Shown here: positions 31,461 through 63,250 of the stretch, piece by piece
Layout: each line of letters opens with the position of its first letter
How positions within the stretch are numbered: the stretch's first letter is position 1
Assembly: GCA_005954745.1 (NCBI GenBank)
Contig: CP040678.1
Location: 1,178,001 to 1,242,000 of the forward strand
Length of the DNA: 64,000 bases
From: Halostella pelagica
Lineage (GTDB): Archaea; Halobacteriota; Halobacteria; Halobacteriales; Natronoarchaeaceae
Direction: 5' to 3'
Position numbers and translations under genes: made by a program
The notes under the pieces: generated by a model
The model's database searches: none
Seen by the model: the letters and a program-made list of their open reading frames with translations, nothing else
Told to the model about the DNA's origin: nothing

Positions 31461-34370
31461 TTAGCCGTCGTCGCCGACATCGACCTGAATCGGCGAGATG
31501 TCGATCACGTACTGATTGTCGTCGTCCGGATTCGCGTTGCTGTTCGAACCGCCGTTGCTTCGGTCGCCCGCGTCGGCATCGTACAGGAACACCGTGTAGT
31601 CGGTGTGGCTGGCGTTCGGATTGTCGAGTTCCATCACGATGATCGCCTGGTCGTCGCCGAGGTCGAACTCGCCGCCGCTGTGGTGGTCGTCGTCGAGAAT
31701 GCTCTCGATGTCGGGTTGCCACCACGCGGTCGACAGGGTCGGCAGATCTTCGCCGTCAGTGTATATCTGGTGGTCAGACTTCGAACTGTTGTCGACGTCG
31801 TCTATCGTCCCGCTCGTACCGTTACACGTCGTGTGTGCGTACGTGTCGCCGTTGTGGTCCGATTCGAGTCCGGTGTCAGTCCCGTTGGTACAGTCGACCG
31901 ACCGAGCCGAGAACGACAGCAGAGAGCCGATAGAAAGGTTGTCGACTCTGAACTTGACGGACCCGCTCCGCGTCGGATCATTGATGGCACCTCCGGGCCC
32001 ATCGGGATCGACGGGACCGTCGGCCGCGGACGGGTCGAGCGAGTACGTCTTGCCACCGATCTGGACTTCCGTCTCTACCGTCTTGTGTTCGACTGCGCGA
32101 ACACGATCTCGGGTCACGTTGCCGGCGATCTGGTCGAAGATATCTTCGAGGTCGCTCGCTTCGTCGACGTAGTGGTACTCTCCGTCCGTTTTGTTCGAAA
32201 CTTGCTTGAGTAGCGTCTCGTTCGCTCCATCTCCGAGACCGATCGTGTAGATCGTGATATTCTCGTCTGCGGCGTTATCCGCCTTTCTGAGGGTCTTTCT
32301 GTTCAACGGCCCTTCTGTTCCAGATCCTTCGTTGTTCTTTCCGTCGCTGAGTAGAACAACGACCTGATCGTCGTTCGAACTCGATTCCAGTTCAGACACC
32401 GATTGTTCAATACCGGAGCCGATGTCCGTACCGCTATTTGCGCGACCTCGAACTTCACCCTTGACGTATCCCAGATTGTGGTGGAGTCCGACGACGGTTT
32501 CGGCTTCTGTGTTGAACTCGACGAACCCCGCTCTGTCGCCCGCACTGGAGTTCAGCGCGTCGATGAAACTCCGGGTAGCGTCGACACGACGTTCGTTCGG
32601 ATCGCTCCCGACGGGCCCGTACTCGGCGTCTCGTACTTCGACTGTTGAATCAGGATCGGTTATCTCATCGCCCGGGGAATACGTCATCGTGCCACCCCAG
32701 CCACCGTCGGTTCGTACTTGAATACCGTCCGGTACAGTGTACTCAGTCCCCCAGTAGTCCTTGGAGATACTTTCCCACTCGATGTCACTTCTGGCCGTTT
32801 CGGTCCAGTTACTCGTCCCCTGCCACGCGCTGTATCCCTGATCCATCGAACCGGATTTGTCAAGGACGAACATCACGTCGAGTGGCGGACGCTCACCGAT
32901 GCTCTTGTTGATCGTCCGCTCTTCGGCGATCTCCGTCCCGAGGAGTTCGATCGTACCGGACGAACTGTTCAGTCGGAGCGCGTTTTCGTCCTTGGAGATG
33001 ACGCCGCAACCGTTCCGGCCCTCGCCGTCGACGTTCGGACACTCGTCGGCGTACTCCGGGACGCCGTCATCGTCGCCGATTCTCAGGTATCCCGTTCGTT
33101 TGCTGTCGTCGTCGTCGTTCAGTTTCACCGTCGCGTTGTAGTTGCCGGCACTGCCGGGGTTCGTTACCTTCCCGTCTTTGCCGTTGCGGTTCTGGCTGCC
33201 GAATTCGAGGGCGATCGTGTCGTTAGCGTTGATCTGGACGCTATCGTCGAATTGGAACTCGATCGTGTTGTCACTCGTGTCCACGCTGTAGCTATCGATG
33301 TGGTTCTTCAGGTCTACGGTGCCGCCGTCGGCGCGATAGATCTTGGACCGGTTTTGGTTGATGTGTCCACGCACACCGGGGCCCTTGCCCTTGAGGTCGG
33401 CCAGATCAGTCTCGCCGTCCTCGTACTTGATCTCGATATCTTCCAGTGTGTCCCCGGTGATCCCGTCCGATTCCTTGACGCCAAACGTTAGTTTGTGACT
33501 CGTATCCGCGCCTGCAGTGTTGTTCACTGCGACCAGCAGGTCGTCGTGGCCGGGAACTCCGATCGGACCGCCCTTGCCGAGTGGCAGGTCGCGGACTACC
33601 ACCGTCTGGTTGCCGTCGTAGACGGTGACGTTGCCGGAATCGCCCATCTTTGTCTCGAAGTATCGCCCCCACGCGTCGTAGTAAGTGCTGTTCTCGACCG
33701 TGATCTGGAGGCTCCGAACGCGGGTTACGTTCCCGTTGCCGTCGTCGCGGCAGAACATTTCGTTCGTTATCGTTTCTTGTCTCTCGCGCGTCCACGTCTT
33801 GTTCACCGCCGCGGTGGTTTCGCCCGAGTTGTCGATTCGACCCGTGAGGTTGGCGACGCTGAAGTCGAACGTTCGATACGTATCGCCGTCGATACGCTCT
33901 GATCGGTACGAGATCGACGGCGGCGACACCATCGTGCTCCCGCCGTTCGTTTGCTTCCAGACGCCGCCACCCTGATACGCGACGCGTTCCCCGTTGTCGT
34001 TTTCGTACTCGAACGAGTTGAGCGCCAGATTCGTCGTACAGTCGTCCCTGTACGTGCCGGTTTCTGTCCACCCGTGGATAGTGAACGTCATCTCGCCGTC
34101 GGCGGCGATCGAGACCTCGTCGTCAGCGTTCATACGCAGTTCAGTCGACCCTTCTCCGCGAGATGACAGCGAAGCGATGTCTGACCGAACTTCCTGCATC
34201 GACATCTCCGCGGACTGGACCTCGTTTTCCTGTTCTATCTGTTCGGTGGCCATTCCGCCGATGAGGAAAATAAGCGTGGCCCCCACGAGAACCATTCCAA
34301 ACAGTATGACGAGTCCGAGTGTGTTAGACGCACCTCGTTCGTCCTCCGATGATGGTAGATGTCGGTCCAT
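31461..34370 (-). CDS. Pilin-like secreted von Willebrand factor A protein
   Basis: A 969-residue surface protein. The N terminus carries an archaeal type IV pilin-like segment, EDERGASNTLGLVILFGMVL, with one hydrophobic helix to about residue 42. A large beta-rich region follows; residues about 428-455 contain a thrombospondin-3-like calcium motif (DDGVPEYADECPNVDG). The VWA domain spans about 495-760 with MIDAS motif DKSGSMDQG after DVMFVL and LSDGKNNEGSG; a further beta domain ends the protein. Likely a cell-surface adhesin. The ATG at 34370 lies 35-40 bases after a TATA box; a TTG at 34394 is less likely. Confidence 0.85.
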   Translation of the reverse strand: MDRHLPSSEDERGASNTLGLVILFGMVLVGATLIFLIGGMATEQIEQENEVQSAEMSMQEVRSDIASLSSRGEGSTELRMNADDEVSIAADGEMTFTIHGWTETGTYRDDCTTNLALNSFEYENDNGERVAYQGGGVWKQTNGGSTMVSPPSISYRSERIDGDTYRTFDFSVANLTGRIDNSGETTAAVNKTWTRERQETITNEMFCRDDGNGNVTRVRSLQITVENSTYYDAWGRYFETKMGDSGNVTVYDGNQTVVVRDLPLGKGGPIGVPGHDDLLVAVNNTAGADTSHKLTFGVKESDGITGDTLEDIEIKYEDGETDLADLKGKGPGVRGHINQNRSKIYRADGGTVDLKNHIDSYSVDTSDNTIEFQFDDSVQINANDTIALEFGSQNRNGKDGKVTNPGSAGNYNATVKLNDDDDSKRTGYLRIGDDDGVPEYADECPNVDGEGRNGCGVISKDENALRLNSSSGTIELLGTEIAEERTINKSIGERPPLDVMFVLDKSGSMDQGYSAWQGTSNWTETARSDIEWESISKDYWGTEYTVPDGIQVRTDGGWGGTMTYSPGDEITDPDSTVEVRDAEYGPVGSDPNERRVDATRSFIDALNSSAGDRAGFVEFNTEAETVVGLHHNLGYVKGEVRGRANSGTDIGSGIEQSVSELESSSNDDQVVVLLSDGKNNEGSGTEGPLNRKTLRKADNAADENITIYTIGLGDGANETLLKQVSNKTDGEYHYVDEASDLEDIFDQIAGNVTRDRVRAVEHKTVETEVQIGGKTYSLDPSAADGPVDPDGPGGAINDPTRSGSVKFRVDNLSIGSLLSFSARSVDCTNGTDTGLESDHNGDTYAHTTCNGTSGTIDDVDNSSKSDHQIYTDGEDLPTLSTAWWQPDIESILDDDHHSGGEFDLGDDQAIIVMELDNPNASHTDYTVFLYDADAGDRSNGGSNSNANPDDDNQYVIDISPIQVDVGDDG

Positions 34371-34404
34371 AGCTACGTACCTTTTGAACTTCAAATATCT
34401 CCAA

Positions 34405-57387: not shown

Positions 57388-59283
57388 TTAGTCACCTGCC
57401 GCAGGTTCGATCCGGGTACCAGTCGCCAGGTTTTCGGTACTGTCGTCGATCTGGGCCTCGAAGCCCTTGACGACTTCGCCCGGTTCGAACGGGTTTCCGT
57501 TGTACTTGAGGAGGCTGGTCATCTTGTCGCCGTACAGTCCCAGTTCTTTCTGAGTCAGTCCGCGGAACTGGGCCGTCGCGTTCATCTCGACGACCAGCGC
57601 CTCCTCGACGCTCTCTAAGAACTCCGTCATCTCCTGTTCGGGGAACGGCATCATGTCACTGACACCGATAGATCTGACGGAGTGGCCCGCATCGTTCAGT
57701 CGGTCGACTGCTTCCTCGACAGCACCCTGCTGGCTCCCCCACGTGATGAGCCCGTATTCGGCGTCTTCCGGGCCGTAATACGTCTGCTGGGTTTCGTACT
57801 CCTCGTTTAGCTCCTCACGGATGGAATCGAGCTTCTGCATCCGCCTGTCCATCTGGTAGACGCGGTTTTCCGGGTCTTCGCTGATGTGTCCGGACTGATT
57901 GTGCTCGTTCCCCGTCGCGAGGTAGCGCCCGCCCTTCTGTCCCGGCAGGGACCGCGGGCTGACGCCGTTTTCGGTCTCGTGAAGGAAGCGGTGGAACTTG
58001 CCCGACTCGTCGTGAGCAGCTTCCGCGATCTCCTCTTCGGTCAGTACGCTCCCCGGGTCCGCGTTGGGCTCCCGGTCGAAGAAACTCGCCGGAAGATTCG
58101 TGTTCTCGCCGGAGAGCTTCTGGTCGAAGATGACGATAGACGGGATCTGGTAGTCGTACGCCATCTTGAACGCCATCCGCGTCTGGTCGTACGCCTCGCC
58201 GACGGTGCCCGGGGCGAAGACGACGCGGTTCGAGTCGCCCTGGCTGGAGTACAGGACGTGTTCGAGGTCACCCTGTTCCGGCTTGGTCGGCATCCCTGTC
58301 GACGGGCCAGCCCGCATCGCTTCGACGAGGACGACCGGCGTCTCGGTCATCTCGGCCAGGCCGAGCGGTTCGCTCATCAGCGCGAAGCCGCCACCCGACG
58401 ATCCGGACATCGACTTGACGCCGGCGTGGCTTGCGCCGACCGCGAGCGCTGCCGCCGCGATCTCGTCCTCGACCTGCTCTGAGATGCCGCCGAACTTCGG
58501 CAGGTTCTGGGACATGATAGTGAACACGTCTGTCCACGGCGTCATGGGGTAACCGGCGATAAACCGGCATCCCTCGTCCAGCGCACCGTAGGCGATGGAG
58601 TTCGACCCCGACAGCAGCACCTGTTCCTCGTCGTGGTCGCCGGTAGGCACGCGCAGGTCGTGTTCGAAGTCGTATTCGTCTTTGACCGTTTCGTAGGACT
58701 CCTGAAGGATCGTGAGGTTCGCCTCCAGGATGTCGCCGCCCATCGCGTCCTCCATCAGGTCCTCGATGTGTTCGAGGTCCATATCGAGCAACGCGGCGGT
58801 GGCACCGACACCGGCCGTGTTCCGCATAACCTCGCGGCCGTGTTCCTTGGCCAGTCCGCGCAGGTCGAGGTCGAACACGTGCCAGTTGTTCTCCTCGGCG
58901 CGCTCCTCGAAGTTCGGGATGTCCTCGGCGTCAAGCAGTCCCGAATCGTAGACGATGATGCCACCCTCGCGGAGTTCGTCGAGGTTCTCCGACAGCGGCT
59001 TCGTCTCCTCGTTGCCGTAGTACGCGTTCTCCTTCGGATTTCGAGCGAACGAGTCGCCCAGAGCCAGCAGGAAGTTGTACCCGTCTCCGCGTGATTTCAC
59101 CTCGTGCTCGGCGGCACGGATCTCCACGTACGTGTGGCCGCCGCGGATACGCGAGGGGTAGTGGCGATGCGTGAATACGTGTAGCCCCGCTCGCATCAGG
59201 GCCTTCGCAAAGTTCTGACTCGTCGAGTCGATTCCGTCACCGGAACCTCCTGCGACGCGCCAGATGAGTTCGTTGTCAGTCAT
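57388..59283 (-). CDS. korA: 2-oxoacid:ferredoxin oxidoreductase, fused gamma-alpha subunit
   Basis: A 631-residue fusion: gamma domain about 1-190 (WRVAGGSGDGIDSTSQNFAK, YPSRIRGGHTYVEIR) and alpha domain about 205-610 (GYPMTPWTDVF, AGVKSMSGSSGGGFALMSE, WGSQQGAVEEAVDRL). It forms the enzyme with KorB for CoA-dependent oxidative decarboxylation. Reduced ferredoxin could feed NuoI in the NuoEFG-less complex I-like enzyme of the same window (inference). The start is taken at ATG 59283 rather than 59313 because the conserved core begins TDNELIWRV. Confidence 0.93.
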   Translation of the reverse strand: MTDNELIWRVAGGSGDGIDSTSQNFAKALMRAGLHVFTHRHYPSRIRGGHTYVEIRAAEHEVKSRGDGYNFLLALGDSFARNPKENAYYGNEETKPLSENLDELREGGIIVYDSGLLDAEDIPNFEERAEENNWHVFDLDLRGLAKEHGREVMRNTAGVGATAALLDMDLEHIEDLMEDAMGGDILEANLTILQESYETVKDEYDFEHDLRVPTGDHDEEQVLLSGSNSIAYGALDEGCRFIAGYPMTPWTDVFTIMSQNLPKFGGISEQVEDEIAAAALAVGASHAGVKSMSGSSGGGFALMSEPLGLAEMTETPVVLVEAMRAGPSTGMPTKPEQGDLEHVLYSSQGDSNRVVFAPGTVGEAYDQTRMAFKMAYDYQIPSIVIFDQKLSGENTNLPASFFDREPNADPGSVLTEEEIAEAAHDESGKFHRFLHETENGVSPRSLPGQKGGRYLATGNEHNQSGHISEDPENRVYQMDRRMQKLDSIREELNEEYETQQTYYGPEDAEYGLITWGSQQGAVEEAVDRLNDAGHSVRSIGVSDMMPFPEQEMTEFLESVEEALVVEMNATAQFRGLTQKELGLYGDKMTSLLKYNGNPFEPGEVVKGFEAQIDDSTENLATGTRIEPAAGD

Positions 59284-59441
59284 AGTTGTAGGTCCCGGGC
59301 CCGCGTGGGCCACGACTAGTTACTTTCTTGGCTACACCCGGACTAAAGGCTTTGCTATACATTAACAAGGAACTATTGTGAGGGATTGGCTAGAAATAGG
59401 ATTCACAATGATGAATGCACATAACACTGTGAATAGGACTG
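59284..59441. other. Transition from GC-rich backbone to AT-rich island
   Basis: After about 59330 base composition changes abruptly to AT-rich, marking one edge of the accessory island that extends to about 62095. ATTCACAATG (59401-59410) and CACTGTGAAT (59425-59434) form an imperfect inverted repeat just past the channel gene stop. No direct repeat or integrase gene was seen at the edge. Confidence 0.5.
59401..59434 (-). terminator. Possible stem-loop terminator after the channel gene
   Basis: Ten-base arms with one mismatch and a fourteen-base loop, starting eight bases after the channel gene TAA at 59442 and followed on the minus strand by CCTATTTCTAG. Confidence 0.35.
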
Positions 59442-60560
59442 TTACCATATGGCTCTCCTGCTTAAAACGAAAACAAGGAGTGCTAAGAATATACCACCAA
59501 TAAGTGACTCTATACCTGCGAAAATCCTAGTGAACTGATCGCCTGGAATATATCCCGGTGGAGTTAATGTTACAAATGACGCTAAACTAAAGTATAAGTG
59601 ACCGAATGTTAACGATAGTGACTCAGAAGTAAGTGGTTCACCATTGTATAGAATTTCCCCATGGTGCTTGAATATAATTGACCAGGATAAAATAACGGCT
59701 ACAGATAGAGAAATCACCCGCCACGGACTATCTCCATAGAGCATTATCCCTCTTGATGTTTCTGCCATAATTCTTTTCAGAGGATTTTCAAATAATTCAT
59801 AGCATTTTCGCCGCGCATGCTTCTCCTTTACATAATAGTAGCGAGCCTGAGTCGCTAAAGAATTCCGTCTAGAGGAATCCATTAATTCTCGGTAGACTCT
59901 TGCTGCTTTCCGGTATTCATCACTCTCTTCGTAGGAGGAGTGTTCATCAAATACTGTATCTTCGTTTATTCTTGCATTCTCTAGAACTATATTATATAGG
60001 TTTGAATTTGTGAATTCTGTATCACCTAATACTGAATCTCGGAAAATTGCGCCCTCTAAATTCGCACTCACGAAGCTAGTTCTTGCTGCCTGAGCCTGTG
60101 TAAGATTCGTATTTCTGAACGATGATCCATCGAATTCGGCAAGAAATAATCTAGAACCGCTCAGATCTGCTTTGTCAAATCTACAGTCATGAAATTTGCA
60201 CGAATACAAATCTTGGCCTGATAAATCTGCATTTGTGAAAAGAGAGCCATTAAAATTCCCTGAGGAAAGTTCGGTATCACTAAGATTAGCTCCGCCAAAG
60301 TTACAACACCGGAGCGTTTTATTACTCAGATCTATACCCTCTAAATCTCCTTCTTCTAAGTATGCGTAGTCAATTTTATCCTCTGACTTTGCTTCCTCTT
60401 CGAGAGTGGAAGTAGGCTTATCTCGTACAATAGCGTGCCAAATACATCGATCCTGTTTCCAAACATCTCGCGTACAGGATTCTCCTGACCCATGATCTGT
60501 TTCCCACCATCTCTCTACTTCGTTTGAGTTGGGTGAAAATCCACATTGGTCCCCATCCAT
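59442..60560 (-). CDS. Pentapeptide-repeat protein fused to an ion-channel-like membrane domain
   Basis: A 372-residue protein not recognised as a named gene. Residues about 75-200 are pentapeptide repeats of A(D/N)Lxx type (GGANLSDTELSSGNFNGSLF, NADLSGQDLY, KADLSGSRL), predicted to form a right-handed beta-helix. After a helical stretch, a C-terminal membrane part (about 285-372) has a helix, a re-entrant FASFVTLTPPGYIPG-like pore loop (SLASFVTLTPPGY) and the inner helix SLIGGIFLALLVFVLSRR, resembling two-helix potassium channels with a degenerate selectivity filter. The ATG at 60560 follows the 101-residue gene stop after one base. AT-rich codon use unlike neighbours. Confidence 0.75.
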   Translation of the reverse strand: MDGDQCGFSPNSNEVERWWETDHGSGESCTRDVWKQDRCIWHAIVRDKPTSTLEEEAKSEDKIDYAYLEEGDLEGIDLSNKTLRCCNFGGANLSDTELSSGNFNGSLFTNADLSGQDLYSCKFHDCRFDKADLSGSRLFLAEFDGSSFRNTNLTQAQAARTSFVSANLEGAIFRDSVLGDTEFTNSNLYNIVLENARINEDTVFDEHSSYEESDEYRKAARVYRELMDSSRRNSLATQARYYYVKEKHARRKCYELFENPLKRIMAETSRGIMLYGDSPWRVISLSVAVILSWSIIFKHHGEILYNGEPLTSESLSLTFGHLYFSLASFVTLTPPGYIPGDQFTRIFAGIESLIGGIFLALLVFVLSRRAIW

Positions 60561-60561
60561 G

Positions 60562-60867
60562 TTAATCAAACCCAATGATTTGCCGAGACCGCTGGTGCTT
60601 CAATCGTTGCTGGAGGGTATAAGCGTCCCAGCGAGAACAATTGTCATATAGAAATCGGGTCCATTGATCTGCATGGGAAGCCTTTAATCGAATTCCATCT
60701 AACCCTTGGTCATCAATAAAATCCATTTGGATTAGGTCATAATAGGCATCTTCAGATTTCTCCCCCCAGCATTTTGCTAGCAGCTCACTTTTTGGAACAG
60801 GATCTCCAGACCCCAGATTATTAATCAGCATTCCGATCAGTTCGCAATGACTTTTCTGCGAACTCAT
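60562..60867 (-). CDS. 101-residue protein, possible winged-helix domain
   Basis: Unrecognised acidic-to-neutral protein: KSHCELIGMLINNLGSGD, VPKSELLAKCWGEKSEDAYY and LIQMDFIDDQGLDGIRL could be the three helices and wing of a winged helix, with a basic C-terminal tail (LQQRLKHQRSRQIIG). It is first in the minus-strand pair with the channel gene, starting about 33 bases after TATA-like TAGATATTTG, and its stop and the channel ATG are one base apart. It could regulate or gate its partner; function unknown. Confidence 0.7.
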   Translation of the reverse strand: MSSQKSHCELIGMLINNLGSGDPVPKSELLAKCWGEKSEDAYYDLIQMDFIDDQGLDGIRLKASHADQWTRFLYDNCSRWDAYTLQQRLKHQRSRQIIGFD

Positions 60868-60896
60868 TAGTCGTTAACACTGACGAGAACACAGGT

Positions 60897-60906
60897 CAAA
60901 TATCTA
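60897..60906 (-). promoter_or_regulatory. TATA box of the minus-strand island pair
   Basis: Minus strand TAGATATTTG, about 33 bases before the ATG at 60867. It lies twelve bases from the palindrome at 60918-60937. Confidence 0.55.
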
Positions 60907-60917
60907 CTGCACTAGGG

Positions 60918-60937
60918 GTGCCAATCTAGATTGGCAC
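60918..60937. promoter_or_regulatory. Perfect 20-base palindrome, probable operator
   Basis: GTGCCAATCTAGATTGGCAC is identical on both strands and lies between the two divergent TATA boxes, about ten bases from each. The adjacent TGCCATTGGCC (60954-60964), at the plus-strand TATA/initiation region, repeats the TGCCA and ATTGGC half-sites. The encoded winged-helix protein (60980-61444) is the natural candidate to bind here. Confidence 0.7.
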
Positions 60938-60945
60938 GGCCGCAA

Positions 60946-60955
60946 AACGCTTATG
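60946..60955 (+). promoter_or_regulatory. TATA box of the plus-strand island pair
   Basis: AACGCTTATG, centred about 29 bases before the ATG at 60980, indicating a leaderless start. The upstream in-frame ATG at 60953 overlaps this box and is therefore rejected. Confidence 0.55.
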
Positions 60956-60979
60956 CCATTGGCCCTTGGTCGTCAATAT

Positions 60980-61444
60980 ATGGTGCCACCAGAGGGGGCA
61001 GAAGAGCAGGATGACAGCCCCGATATGAAGAAGATTCGGCGGAATCATCCTAGTGGATGGCTATATCTCACGAAGAACGACAGCGTTAATTATGTACTGG
61101 ATGCATTGATAGATCTTCCCCCAGGTAAAGAATTTAATAAGACAGAGTTGGCTGATCAAGTGGGAATTAGTCGTGAATCTGTCCGGAAGCATATTGAACT
61201 CTTCTTAGAGTTAGGAATACTCGAAGAAGTTACTGGAACTAGTAACCAACGTTACCGCCTAAACATAGATGGAAGGGTAACCAATGAGGTGTTCGCAGTT
61301 AACAGCGCTGTGAATGCTGCTCGGGGAGAGGAAGAGATCACTATAGATCTTGATCCGCTTTTCCATAGTACACCTTCGCGGGGAGAGGCCTATTCAGTAA
61401 TGCAAAGTGTGAGTAATAACATAGAGAACAAGCTGAAAAGTTAA
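60980..61444 (+). CDS. Winged-helix regulator of the AT-rich island
   Basis: A 154-residue DNA-binding protein: residues about 40-110 form a winged helix with YVLDALIDLPPGKEFNKTEL, ADQVGISRESVRKHIELFLE and wing LEEVTGTSNQRYRLNI. The C-terminal part (TIDLDPLFHSTPSRGEAYSV) is likely for dimerisation or ligand binding. It is divergent from the 101-residue/channel pair and three bases before the 212-residue gene. Probably an autoregulator acting on the palindrome just upstream. AT-rich codon use. Confidence 0.8.
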   Translation: MVPPEGAEEQDDSPDMKKIRRNHPSGWLYLTKNDSVNYVLDALIDLPPGKEFNKTELADQVGISRESVRKHIELFLELGILEEVTGTSNQRYRLNIDGRVTNEVFAVNSAVNAARGEEEITIDLDPLFHSTPSRGEAYSVMQSVSNNIENKLKS

Positions 61445-61447
61445 AAT

Positions 61448-62086
61448 ATGTCTGAGAACATTTTTATGGATAGGATCGATGAATTGGAATCTAAATTTGG
61501 GAAAATAAGTGCAGAGACAGGAGAAGTTATAGAACAAACTGAAGAAAACGATGATGGAAATACAGAATATTATCGTGGATTTTACTTTGAGTTTGAGAAT
61601 TCCCACTTCTATATTCTTGGATCTGCTTCTAAGGAATATGTCGCTCTGAGATATCCATATAGTCTCACCAAGCACCTATCAAATAGAATAGATATAGAGA
61701 AAGCAAGAGAATTAGTTGAGGATAGTGGAGAGGATTTTGAGGAAGAAGAGTTAAAAGAAGAAGCAGCAACTGAACTGCTTCGAACCATACAAGATGAGGA
61801 GTTAGAACAATTAGAGTTCCATCTCTCGGAACGGCTAACTTCCTCCGAAGTTGAATACGATATTTCTCACAAAGAAGGTCTCCCTACTGGGTTTCAAGTA
61901 GAAACGCTATTATTCCCGTATGAGGGGTCAATCAGATTATCCACTCTATATGACGAATTACAAGCAGTCAATGCAATAGGGAAGCTTGGAAGTAGGTTCT
62001 TGGCATCCTCATTTAATTTATCAATTGACAGCGGAACAGATGGAGAAGATAAATCGTTTTCAATAAACCTTGCACAAGAAACTTAA
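61448..62086 (+). CDS. Unrecognised 212-residue island protein
   Basis: No family was recognised. The acidic protein has two beta-rich parts, GFYFEFENSHFYILGSASKE and GFQVETLLFPYEGSIRLSTL, separated by a Glu-rich helical middle (about 85-120: EDFEEEELKEEAATELLRTI); this layout recalls YbjN/secretion-chaperone-like folds, only as resemblance. It lies three bases after the winged-helix gene, so it is cotranscribed and may interact with it. Codons such as AGA, ATA and TTA are frequent, unlike surrounding genes. It ends ten bases before the convergent aroC stop. Confidence 0.75.
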   Translation: MSENIFMDRIDELESKFGKISAETGEVIEQTEENDDGNTEYYRGFYFEFENSHFYILGSASKEYVALRYPYSLTKHLSNRIDIEKARELVEDSGEDFEEEELKEEAATELLRTIQDEELEQLEFHLSERLTSSEVEYDISHKEGLPTGFQVETLLFPYEGSIRLSTLYDELQAVNAIGKLGSRFLASSFNLSIDSGTDGEDKSFSINLAQET

Positions 62087-62095
62087 TTAAGCAGT

Positions 62096-63250
62096 TTATT
62101 CCTCGTTCTCCGGACTACTCGGGTGATAGTCCGTATCGTACTCGCCGGGCCGGTCGTCGACTCGGTCGGGGTTCATGCGGCCACCGAGAAGCATGAAATC
62201 GACGAGCGTCAGCGCGAGCATCGCCTCCACCACGGGGACGCCCCGCGGCGGGAGGACGGGGTCGTGGCGGCCGATGACTTTCTCCTCTTTCTCCTCGCCG
62301 GTCTCCCAGTCGACGGTCTGCTGTGACTTCGGGATAGACGTCGGCGCGTGCAGGGTCACCTCGCCGTAGATGGGTTCGCCACTGGTGATACCACCCTGTA
62401 GGCCGCCGTGGTCGTTCTCGGCCGGGACGGGGTCACCGTCGTCATTAAATTCCCAGTGGTCGTTGCGCTCGTACCCGGTGTACTCACGCGCGTCTTTGCC
62501 GAGGCCGAACTCGAAGGCAGTCGTCGCGGGCACGGACATCATCGCCTGACCGAGTCGTGACTCGACGGAGTCGAACCGCGGTGCACCGAGGCCGCGCGGG
62601 ACGCCGCGGGCCTCGAAGTAGATGCTGCCACCGATGGAGTCTCCTTCTTCCTGATATTGCTCGATCAGTTCCTGCATCTCCACGGCTGTCTCGGGGTGGG
62701 CACAGCGGACATCGTTCTCCTCGGAGTGTGCTTTGATCTGTTCGAAGGATAGTTCGGGCGCTTCGACGTCGCCGATCTGATTGACGTGGGCTTTGAGTTC
62801 GACCCCTTCCTGTGCGAGGAGTTTCTTCGCAATGGCACCCGCCGCGACCCAGTTGACCGTCTCGCGGGCAGAGGAGCGACCGCCGCCGCCCCAGTTTCGG
62901 GTGCCGAACTTGGCGGAGTAGGTGAAGTCGCCGTGGCTTGGCCGCGGCGCGGTGATAAACGGTTCGTACTTACCGGAGCGGGCGTCCTTGTTCTGGATGA
63001 CCATCCCGATCGGGGTGCCCGTAGTGTAGCCGTCCTGTACGCCGCTTTTGATCGAGACGTCGTCGGGTTCACCGCGGCTCGTCGAGATCATCGACTGGCC
63101 GGGTTTGCGTCGGTCCAGGTCAGCCTGAATGTCCTCCTCGGAGAGCTCGATACCGGCGGGACAGCCGCTGACCGTCACGCCCATCGCCTCGCCGTGGCTC
63201 TCGCCGAAAGTGGTCACCTGAAAGAGGTGACCGAAGCTGTTGCCGTTCAT
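62096..63250 (-). CDS. aroC: Chorismate synthase
   Basis: Last common step of aromatic amino-acid synthesis, converting EPSP to chorismate with reduced FMN; 384 residues. Signatures are GESHGEAMGVTVSGCPAGIE, RRKPGQSMISTSRGEPD, FGTRNWGGGGRSSARETVNW and DHGGLQGGITSGEPI, with both catalytic His (GESHG and the RCAHPE area) visible. The ATG at 63250 gives the usual MNGNSFGHLFQ start; the in-frame 16 residues upstream are rejected. A TATA-like ATCTAAATGC lies around 63275-63284. Confidence 0.96.
   Translation of the reverse strand: MNGNSFGHLFQVTTFGESHGEAMGVTVSGCPAGIELSEEDIQADLDRRKPGQSMISTSRGEPDDVSIKSGVQDGYTTGTPIGMVIQNKDARSGKYEPFITAPRPSHGDFTYSAKFGTRNWGGGGRSSARETVNWVAAGAIAKKLLAQEGVELKAHVNQIGDVEAPELSFEQIKAHSEENDVRCAHPETAVEMQELIEQYQEEGDSIGGSIYFEARGVPRGLGAPRFDSVESRLGQAMMSVPATTAFEFGLGKDAREYTGYERNDHWEFNDDGDPVPAENDHGGLQGGITSGEPIYGEVTLHAPTSIPKSQQTVDWETGEEKEEKVIGRHDPVLPPRGVPVVEAMLALTLVDFMLLGGRMNPDRVDDRPGEYDTDYHPSSPENEE

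Follow-up and report, generated by a model that had tools for sequence, protein, structure and literature searches.

The question raised by this locus is how four AT-rich genes came to separate korA from aroC in a haloarchaeal genome of 3.94 Mb, and what they do there. The answer developed below, held tentatively and with nearly as much chance of being right as wrong, is that they form an acquired, self-regulated accessory cassette in which a two-state switch controls a pore that is not K+-selective.

Composition and gene content of the island

A GC scan was carried out over the window, i.e. the whole 64,000-nucleotide stretch of DNA analysed. Positions 59330–62095 have a GC content of 0.410, compared with 0.641 elsewhere in the window, where no other 2766-bp stretch falls below 0.573. 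At the left edge of the island, near 59300, GC drops from 0.58 to 0.43, and at the right edge, near 62100, it climbs from 0.41 to 0.67. The GC3 of the four genes, here called P1–P4, is 0.29–0.42, against 0.80–0.85 for korA, korB, and aroC. These values bear out the AT-rich island of the preliminary description, made from the sequence before any searches, and domain matches to KorA and AroC confirm where it was placed. The sharp change in codon use that had been described for it holds in part: judged by the combined share of AGA, AGG, ATA, and TTA codons (0–0.6% in the flanking genes), the shift is strong in P1 and P4 (9.9% each), lesser in P3 (5.2%), and only slight in P2 (2.0%).

As had also been described, the island contains exactly four genes, closely packed as two divergent pairs, P2–P1 on the minus strand and P3–P4 on the plus strand, which share a single promoter region. 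This region is 112 bp long and contains a strong palindrome. The ATG start of P1 lies one base past the P2 stop (an alternative TTG start at 60575 would add five residues), and three bases separate P3 from P4. The start of P3 was set inward, at the ATG at 60980, because its relatives begin near there and the longest frame starts too far upstream. The features are as follows.

57388–59283, flank of the island: KorA (POR_N and POR domains)
59330–62095, no strand: AT-rich island, in all likelihood acquired (GC 0.41 against 0.64; korA–aroC junction content differs among relatives)
59442–60560, minus strand: P1, 372 aa, pentapeptide repeats and a C-terminal two-helix K+-channel-like pore (Pentapeptide_4, Ion_trans_2, phrog_15350)
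60562–60867, minus strand: P2, 101 aa, winged-helix protein of an unnamed haloarchaeal family (family alignments, AlphaFold2 model)
60897–60906, minus strand: possible TATA-like element for P2–P1 transcription, some 30 bp upstream of P2; weak
60918–60937, no strand: perfect 20-bp palindrome GTGCCAATCTAGATTGGCAC, operator-like (shuffles, uniqueness in the genome, position matching related P2–P3 loci)
60951–60957, plus strand: TTATGCC, a TATA-like element for P3–P4 transcription, some 26 bp upstream of P3; resemblance to the consensus only
60980–61444, plus strand: P3, 154 aa, ArsR-like winged-helix regulator (alignments, profile match to Rv1994c)
61448–62086, plus strand: P4, 212 aa, unnamed haloarchaeal family with an LFPYE motif, in an operon with P3 (profile relatives)
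62096–63250, flank of the island: AroC (Chorismate_synt domain)

The korA–aroC junction among relatives

The same junction was compared across related genomes. Two congeners (G324 and G327) keep the korA–aroC synteny and carry another insert in the gap; in other genera the gap is short and holds no convincing gene (G004 and G128) or is filled by about 7 kb of different GC-rich genes (G005). In the remaining relatives examined, korA and aroC are not close together. Because the content of the gap differs or is empty among relatives, the site is considered variable. This variation, the low-GC composition, and the lack of P4 in the four congeners searched make it almost certain, as far as sequence comparison can tell, that the island was horizontally acquired, as had been proposed. 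A tRNA search found no tRNA at the island, and a repeat search found neither flanking direct repeats nor attachment repeats. A viral origin was considered and rejected, with no relatives of P3 or P4 found in viral contigs and none of P3 in phage records; phage matches to P1 lie mostly over its pentapeptide repeats.

The insert in the two syntenic congeners (L169:11493–14893 in G324 and L178:9590–13869 in G327) has a GC content of about 0.52 and consists of a gene for a very large extracellular protein with PKD/Ig-like stretches and a gene for a membrane-anchored protein of 312–316 aa.

P2 and P3 form a recurrent divergent pair

No match to P2 was found in any family library searched, and a PDB sequence search gave nothing meaningful. 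Alignments of its family show the motif C..W....RLKHYEGW, the island copy being divergent at its C-terminus. Its AlphaFold2 model (pLDDT 81.7) has the topology H-H-H-E-E-H-H, and on this model P2 is a winged-helix protein. The best fold matches of the model are the DtxR/MntR-type repressors DR2539 and IdeR, at a level that is not significant (E 0.045), and P2 differs from these in having only 101 residues with no further domain visible. The winged-helix region of P3 resembles that of ArsR-type repressors, among them the regulator Rv1994c (PDB 2jsc; matched by profile at 4.5e-6), although P3 differs from them in its operator and in having a divergent winged-helix partner. The winged-helix nature first ascribed to both proteins was thus upheld, by model for P2 and by profile for P3. 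PADLOC matches to P3 were weak and of a generic winged-helix kind (best 1.9e-4).

Matches to P2 were found in 46 of 341 genomes of the class, the source genome counted, and all 19 relatives fetched from this search are divergent from a P3-type gene. A divergent P2–P3 pair, annotated as hypothetical or generic HTH, is likewise present at each of the six plasmid loci examined. A P3 profile search of named genomes returned 67 loci, all archaeal and nearly all haloarchaeal by name, 46 of which have a detectable P2 divergent from P3. At the island itself the P2-type and P3-type genes lie divergently within 400 bp. On these sequence comparisons, P2–P3 is an unnamed divergent winged-helix module that recurs in haloarchaea, both on plasmids and on chromosomes. 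Members of the two pairs do occur together elsewhere, as the preliminary reading required, the P2–P3–P4 core recurring in the same divergent layout in G218, G173, and G123 and P2–P3 in dozens of genomes. A literature search returned no description of these island gene families.

A P1-like match lies within 5 kb of P3 at loci from Halorussus ruber (L216) and Halobellus captivus (L223). A second P3-like stretch in the source genome (L202, G000:C2:120005–120244) has a frame with one stop and is perhaps a decayed copy.

An operator-like palindrome between the divergent genes

The intergenic regions of P2–P3 loci can be aligned and show a palindrome enclosed by two back-to-back TATA-like elements. 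In the island, GTGCCAATCTAGATTGGCAC occupies the aligned position of this palindrome; an arm of equal or greater length arose in 1 of 5000 Markov shuffles, and no second copy of the palindrome occurs in the genome even when three mismatches are allowed. The element TTATGCC aligns with TTATACA of the related loci, and the P2–P1 element was placed by its position relative to their TATAAA. The palindromes vary between P3 subfamilies and tend to agree inside each, the subfamily grouping having been made after the motifs were seen. That of the common subfamily is CTGTTAA-N6-TTAACAG; the half-site GTGCCAA/TTGGCAC is found at three P4-linked loci (the island, L042, and L043) and is missing at a fourth (L034); L035, L036, and L048 carry AAACTGTTTTCC or similar; and L037, L039, and L049 carry TGCAT-TGCA types. 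Agreement inside a subfamily would be expected if P3 binds there, and the intergenic region probably acts as a switch controlled at the predicted operator.

P1 is a channel-like protein with an altered filter

P1 matches Pentapeptide_4 (1.1e-20), Ion_trans_2 (0.17), and phrog_15350 (5.4e-45), and the pentapeptide/ion-channel membrane protein of the preliminary description was recovered, albeit with a degenerate filter. The repeats span approximately residues 60–200. The own Ion_trans_2 score of P1 (12.2) is below the Pfam cut-off, and homology to two-helix pores is seen in that the whole pore can be aligned with GYGD channels. In most aligned relatives the filter reads T-x-G-Y-G-D or nearly so, whereas P1 reads TLTPPGYIPGD, a change which suggests that K+ selectivity has been lost or that the pore is dead. 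P1 has the architecture of the haloarchaeal pentapeptide-repeat/Ion_trans_2 proteins (phrog_15350-like), mostly at 30–39% identity, and differs from these in lacking the canonical filter and in being coupled to P2. The source genome keeps a GYGD-type paralogue (G000:C1:2559922), which has similar neighbours in a congener. We see slightly less than an even chance that P1 acts as an effector during conflict or stress.

The earlier suggestion that the four genes might be one conserved unit was not borne out in that form. P1-like matches occur in 173 of the 341 genomes, usually without P2–P4; P1 was not found beside P2–P3–P4 at other loci, the full four-gene set being found only in the island; and most P2–P3 pairs are accompanied by neither P4 nor a channel gene. 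This distribution, together with the degenerate filter, speaks for two unrelated modules, a plasmid-type P2–P3(–P4) switch and a hitch-hiking P1, itself a paralogue of the common haloarchaeal pentapeptide channel, that came to lie behind P2 by chance and may be decaying. Such an origin is nevertheless considered rather unlikely, since the single base between P2 and P1 leaves no room for a separate promoter, the 372-residue frame of P1 and its repeats are intact, and the low GC is common to all four genes.

P4 and its neighbours

P4 has no meaningful match in Pfam, NCBIfam, PADLOC, or PDB, in keeping with its first description as a novel 212-residue protein. A profile search found relatives in 25 of 341 genomes and 19 of 81 genera, the source genome counted. 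The gene immediately upstream is P3-type at 10 of the 26 other loci and a different HTH gene at one more. A single-sequence structure model of P4 (pLDDT 43) was too low in confidence for use. Only M1 and P157 are near-invariant, neither charged nor catalytic-looking, and for this reason P4 may be an adaptor or sensor.

P3–P4 might instead be toxin–antitoxin-like, with P3 as an autoregulating antitoxin, P4 as the toxin, and P2 and P1 as accessories. A small gene for a DNA-binding protein that immediately precedes another gene and is coupled to it, a matched operator, and a patchy spread are all consistent with this, and P3-type pairs often lie amid genes that look toxin–antitoxin-like when their first residues are read by eye. 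The lack of conserved charged or catalytic-looking residues and of any toxin family match for P4, and the wide presence of P3 without P4, nonetheless make a toxin–antitoxin pair quite improbable.

At three loci (L099:6111–6932, L104:7745–8752, and L108:5588–6445), homologous proteins with two predicted membrane helices are encoded convergently with P4, 10–26 bp away. This unnamed family, which has a C-terminal soluble domain and relatives in 17 of 292 genomes, is thereby linked to P4 in three genera other than that of the island. Membrane neighbours of P4 overall were not enriched (9 of 26 loci compared with 28% of control genes, p = 0.29).

Another copy of the P4-linked membrane protein family (G123:C2:3888–5765) is found next to P3-like matches within a frame of 406 aa. 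At L101:4649–7137 (G198), P4 follows a different HTH gene, divergent from genes for a 162-aa soluble and a 185-aa membrane protein, so that the four-gene layout of the island is built there from other parts.

Association with defence genes

No gene of the island matches a defence family above the cut-off, and none qualified as a PADLOC component. A convincing PADLOC match was found within 5 kb of the P4-family gene at 6 of 26 loci, compared with 3 of 60 controls (one-sided Fisher p = 0.02), the controls being random 11-kb stretches of the same contigs as the P4 loci. The case matches are type IIG or DrmMI-like enzymes (L103, L107, L111, and L121), a type I methyltransferase (L120), and TmtA (L104); those of the controls are a type IIG enzyme, a type II methyltransferase, and a Cas8b. 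The value becomes p = 0.07 if PADLOC matches to UvrD-type helicases in the controls are counted, and the first control set alone gave 1 of 20 (p = 0.098), after which the control was enlarged to 60. The minimum protein length in the scan was 480 aa for the second control set and 280 aa for the case set and first control; all six case matches exceed 480 aa. The enrichment is a plausible but fragile lead that concerns the P4 family and not the island itself. The defence role first proposed for the island thus gained a weak neighbourhood enrichment but no family match, and is still conjectural.

P1 was also compared with HalA of the anti-phage Hailong system, an ion channel according to PMC13275509. 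The HalA model (NCBIfam NF051894) matches residues 85–329 of P1 at 7.1e-11, extending over the pentapeptide region and into the membrane region; the score of 41.9 bits is far below the curated cut-off of 250 bits. Three other haloarchaeal channel relatives have no match to this model at 1e-5 and one scores 30.9 bits. HalB (NF051895) has no match in the genome at E 0.001, and the island differs further from Hailong in having the winged-helix P2 and P3 and the unnamed P4. From the low score and the absence of HalB, P1 is at most HalA-like in its working and not a member of the family. That the island is a diverged defence system of the Hailong type, its HalA-like channel effector being P1, is a reading to which the poorer matches of the other channel relatives lend some colour, but it is very improbable, the more so as the HalA match of P1 may owe much to its pentapeptide repeats.

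Proposed working of the island

The reading of the island as a self-regulated cassette draws on its composition, the variable junction, the recurrent divergent P2–P3 pair, the subfamily palindromes, and an operator unique in the genome, and further on the tight P2–P1 and P3–P4 coupling, the filter change in P1, the membrane protein near P4, and the defence-gene neighbourhood. P3, perhaps with P2, would bind the palindrome and repress both promoters, giving a two-state switch. A trigger, possibly acting through P4, would then relieve repression or gate P1, which would open a membrane pore that has lost K+ selectivity and so depolarise or arrest the cell; the setting might be virus attack, plasmid conflict, or another stress. 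Against the cassette reading were counted the failure to find P1 with P2–P3–P4 at other loci, the occurrence of most P2–P3 pairs without P4 or a channel, the lack of enrichment of membrane neighbours of P4, the p = 0.07 variant of the defence comparison, and the chance that P1 is a dead channel.

Defences in which a membrane effector kills the host cell are well documented for bacteria, and in archaea few are known. A broader proposal, which we think unlikely, is that the island exemplifies a new kind of haloarchaeal module for immunity or conflict, with exchangeable membrane effectors, here the P1 pore with its lost ion selectivity, restrained by a divergent double winged-helix switch and a P4 sensor. 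The P2–P3 pair may represent an undescribed two-regulator switch of haloarchaeal plasmids and chromosomes, mostly annotated as hypothetical or generic HTH, whose predicted operator code can be directly tested, and P4 represents a new family tied to membrane proteins at some loci.

Elsewhere in the window, positions 31461–34394 (minus strand; local GC about 0.57) encode a 977-aa protein whose N-terminus, when read by eye, resembles that of a pilin and which has a stretch resembling von Willebrand A.
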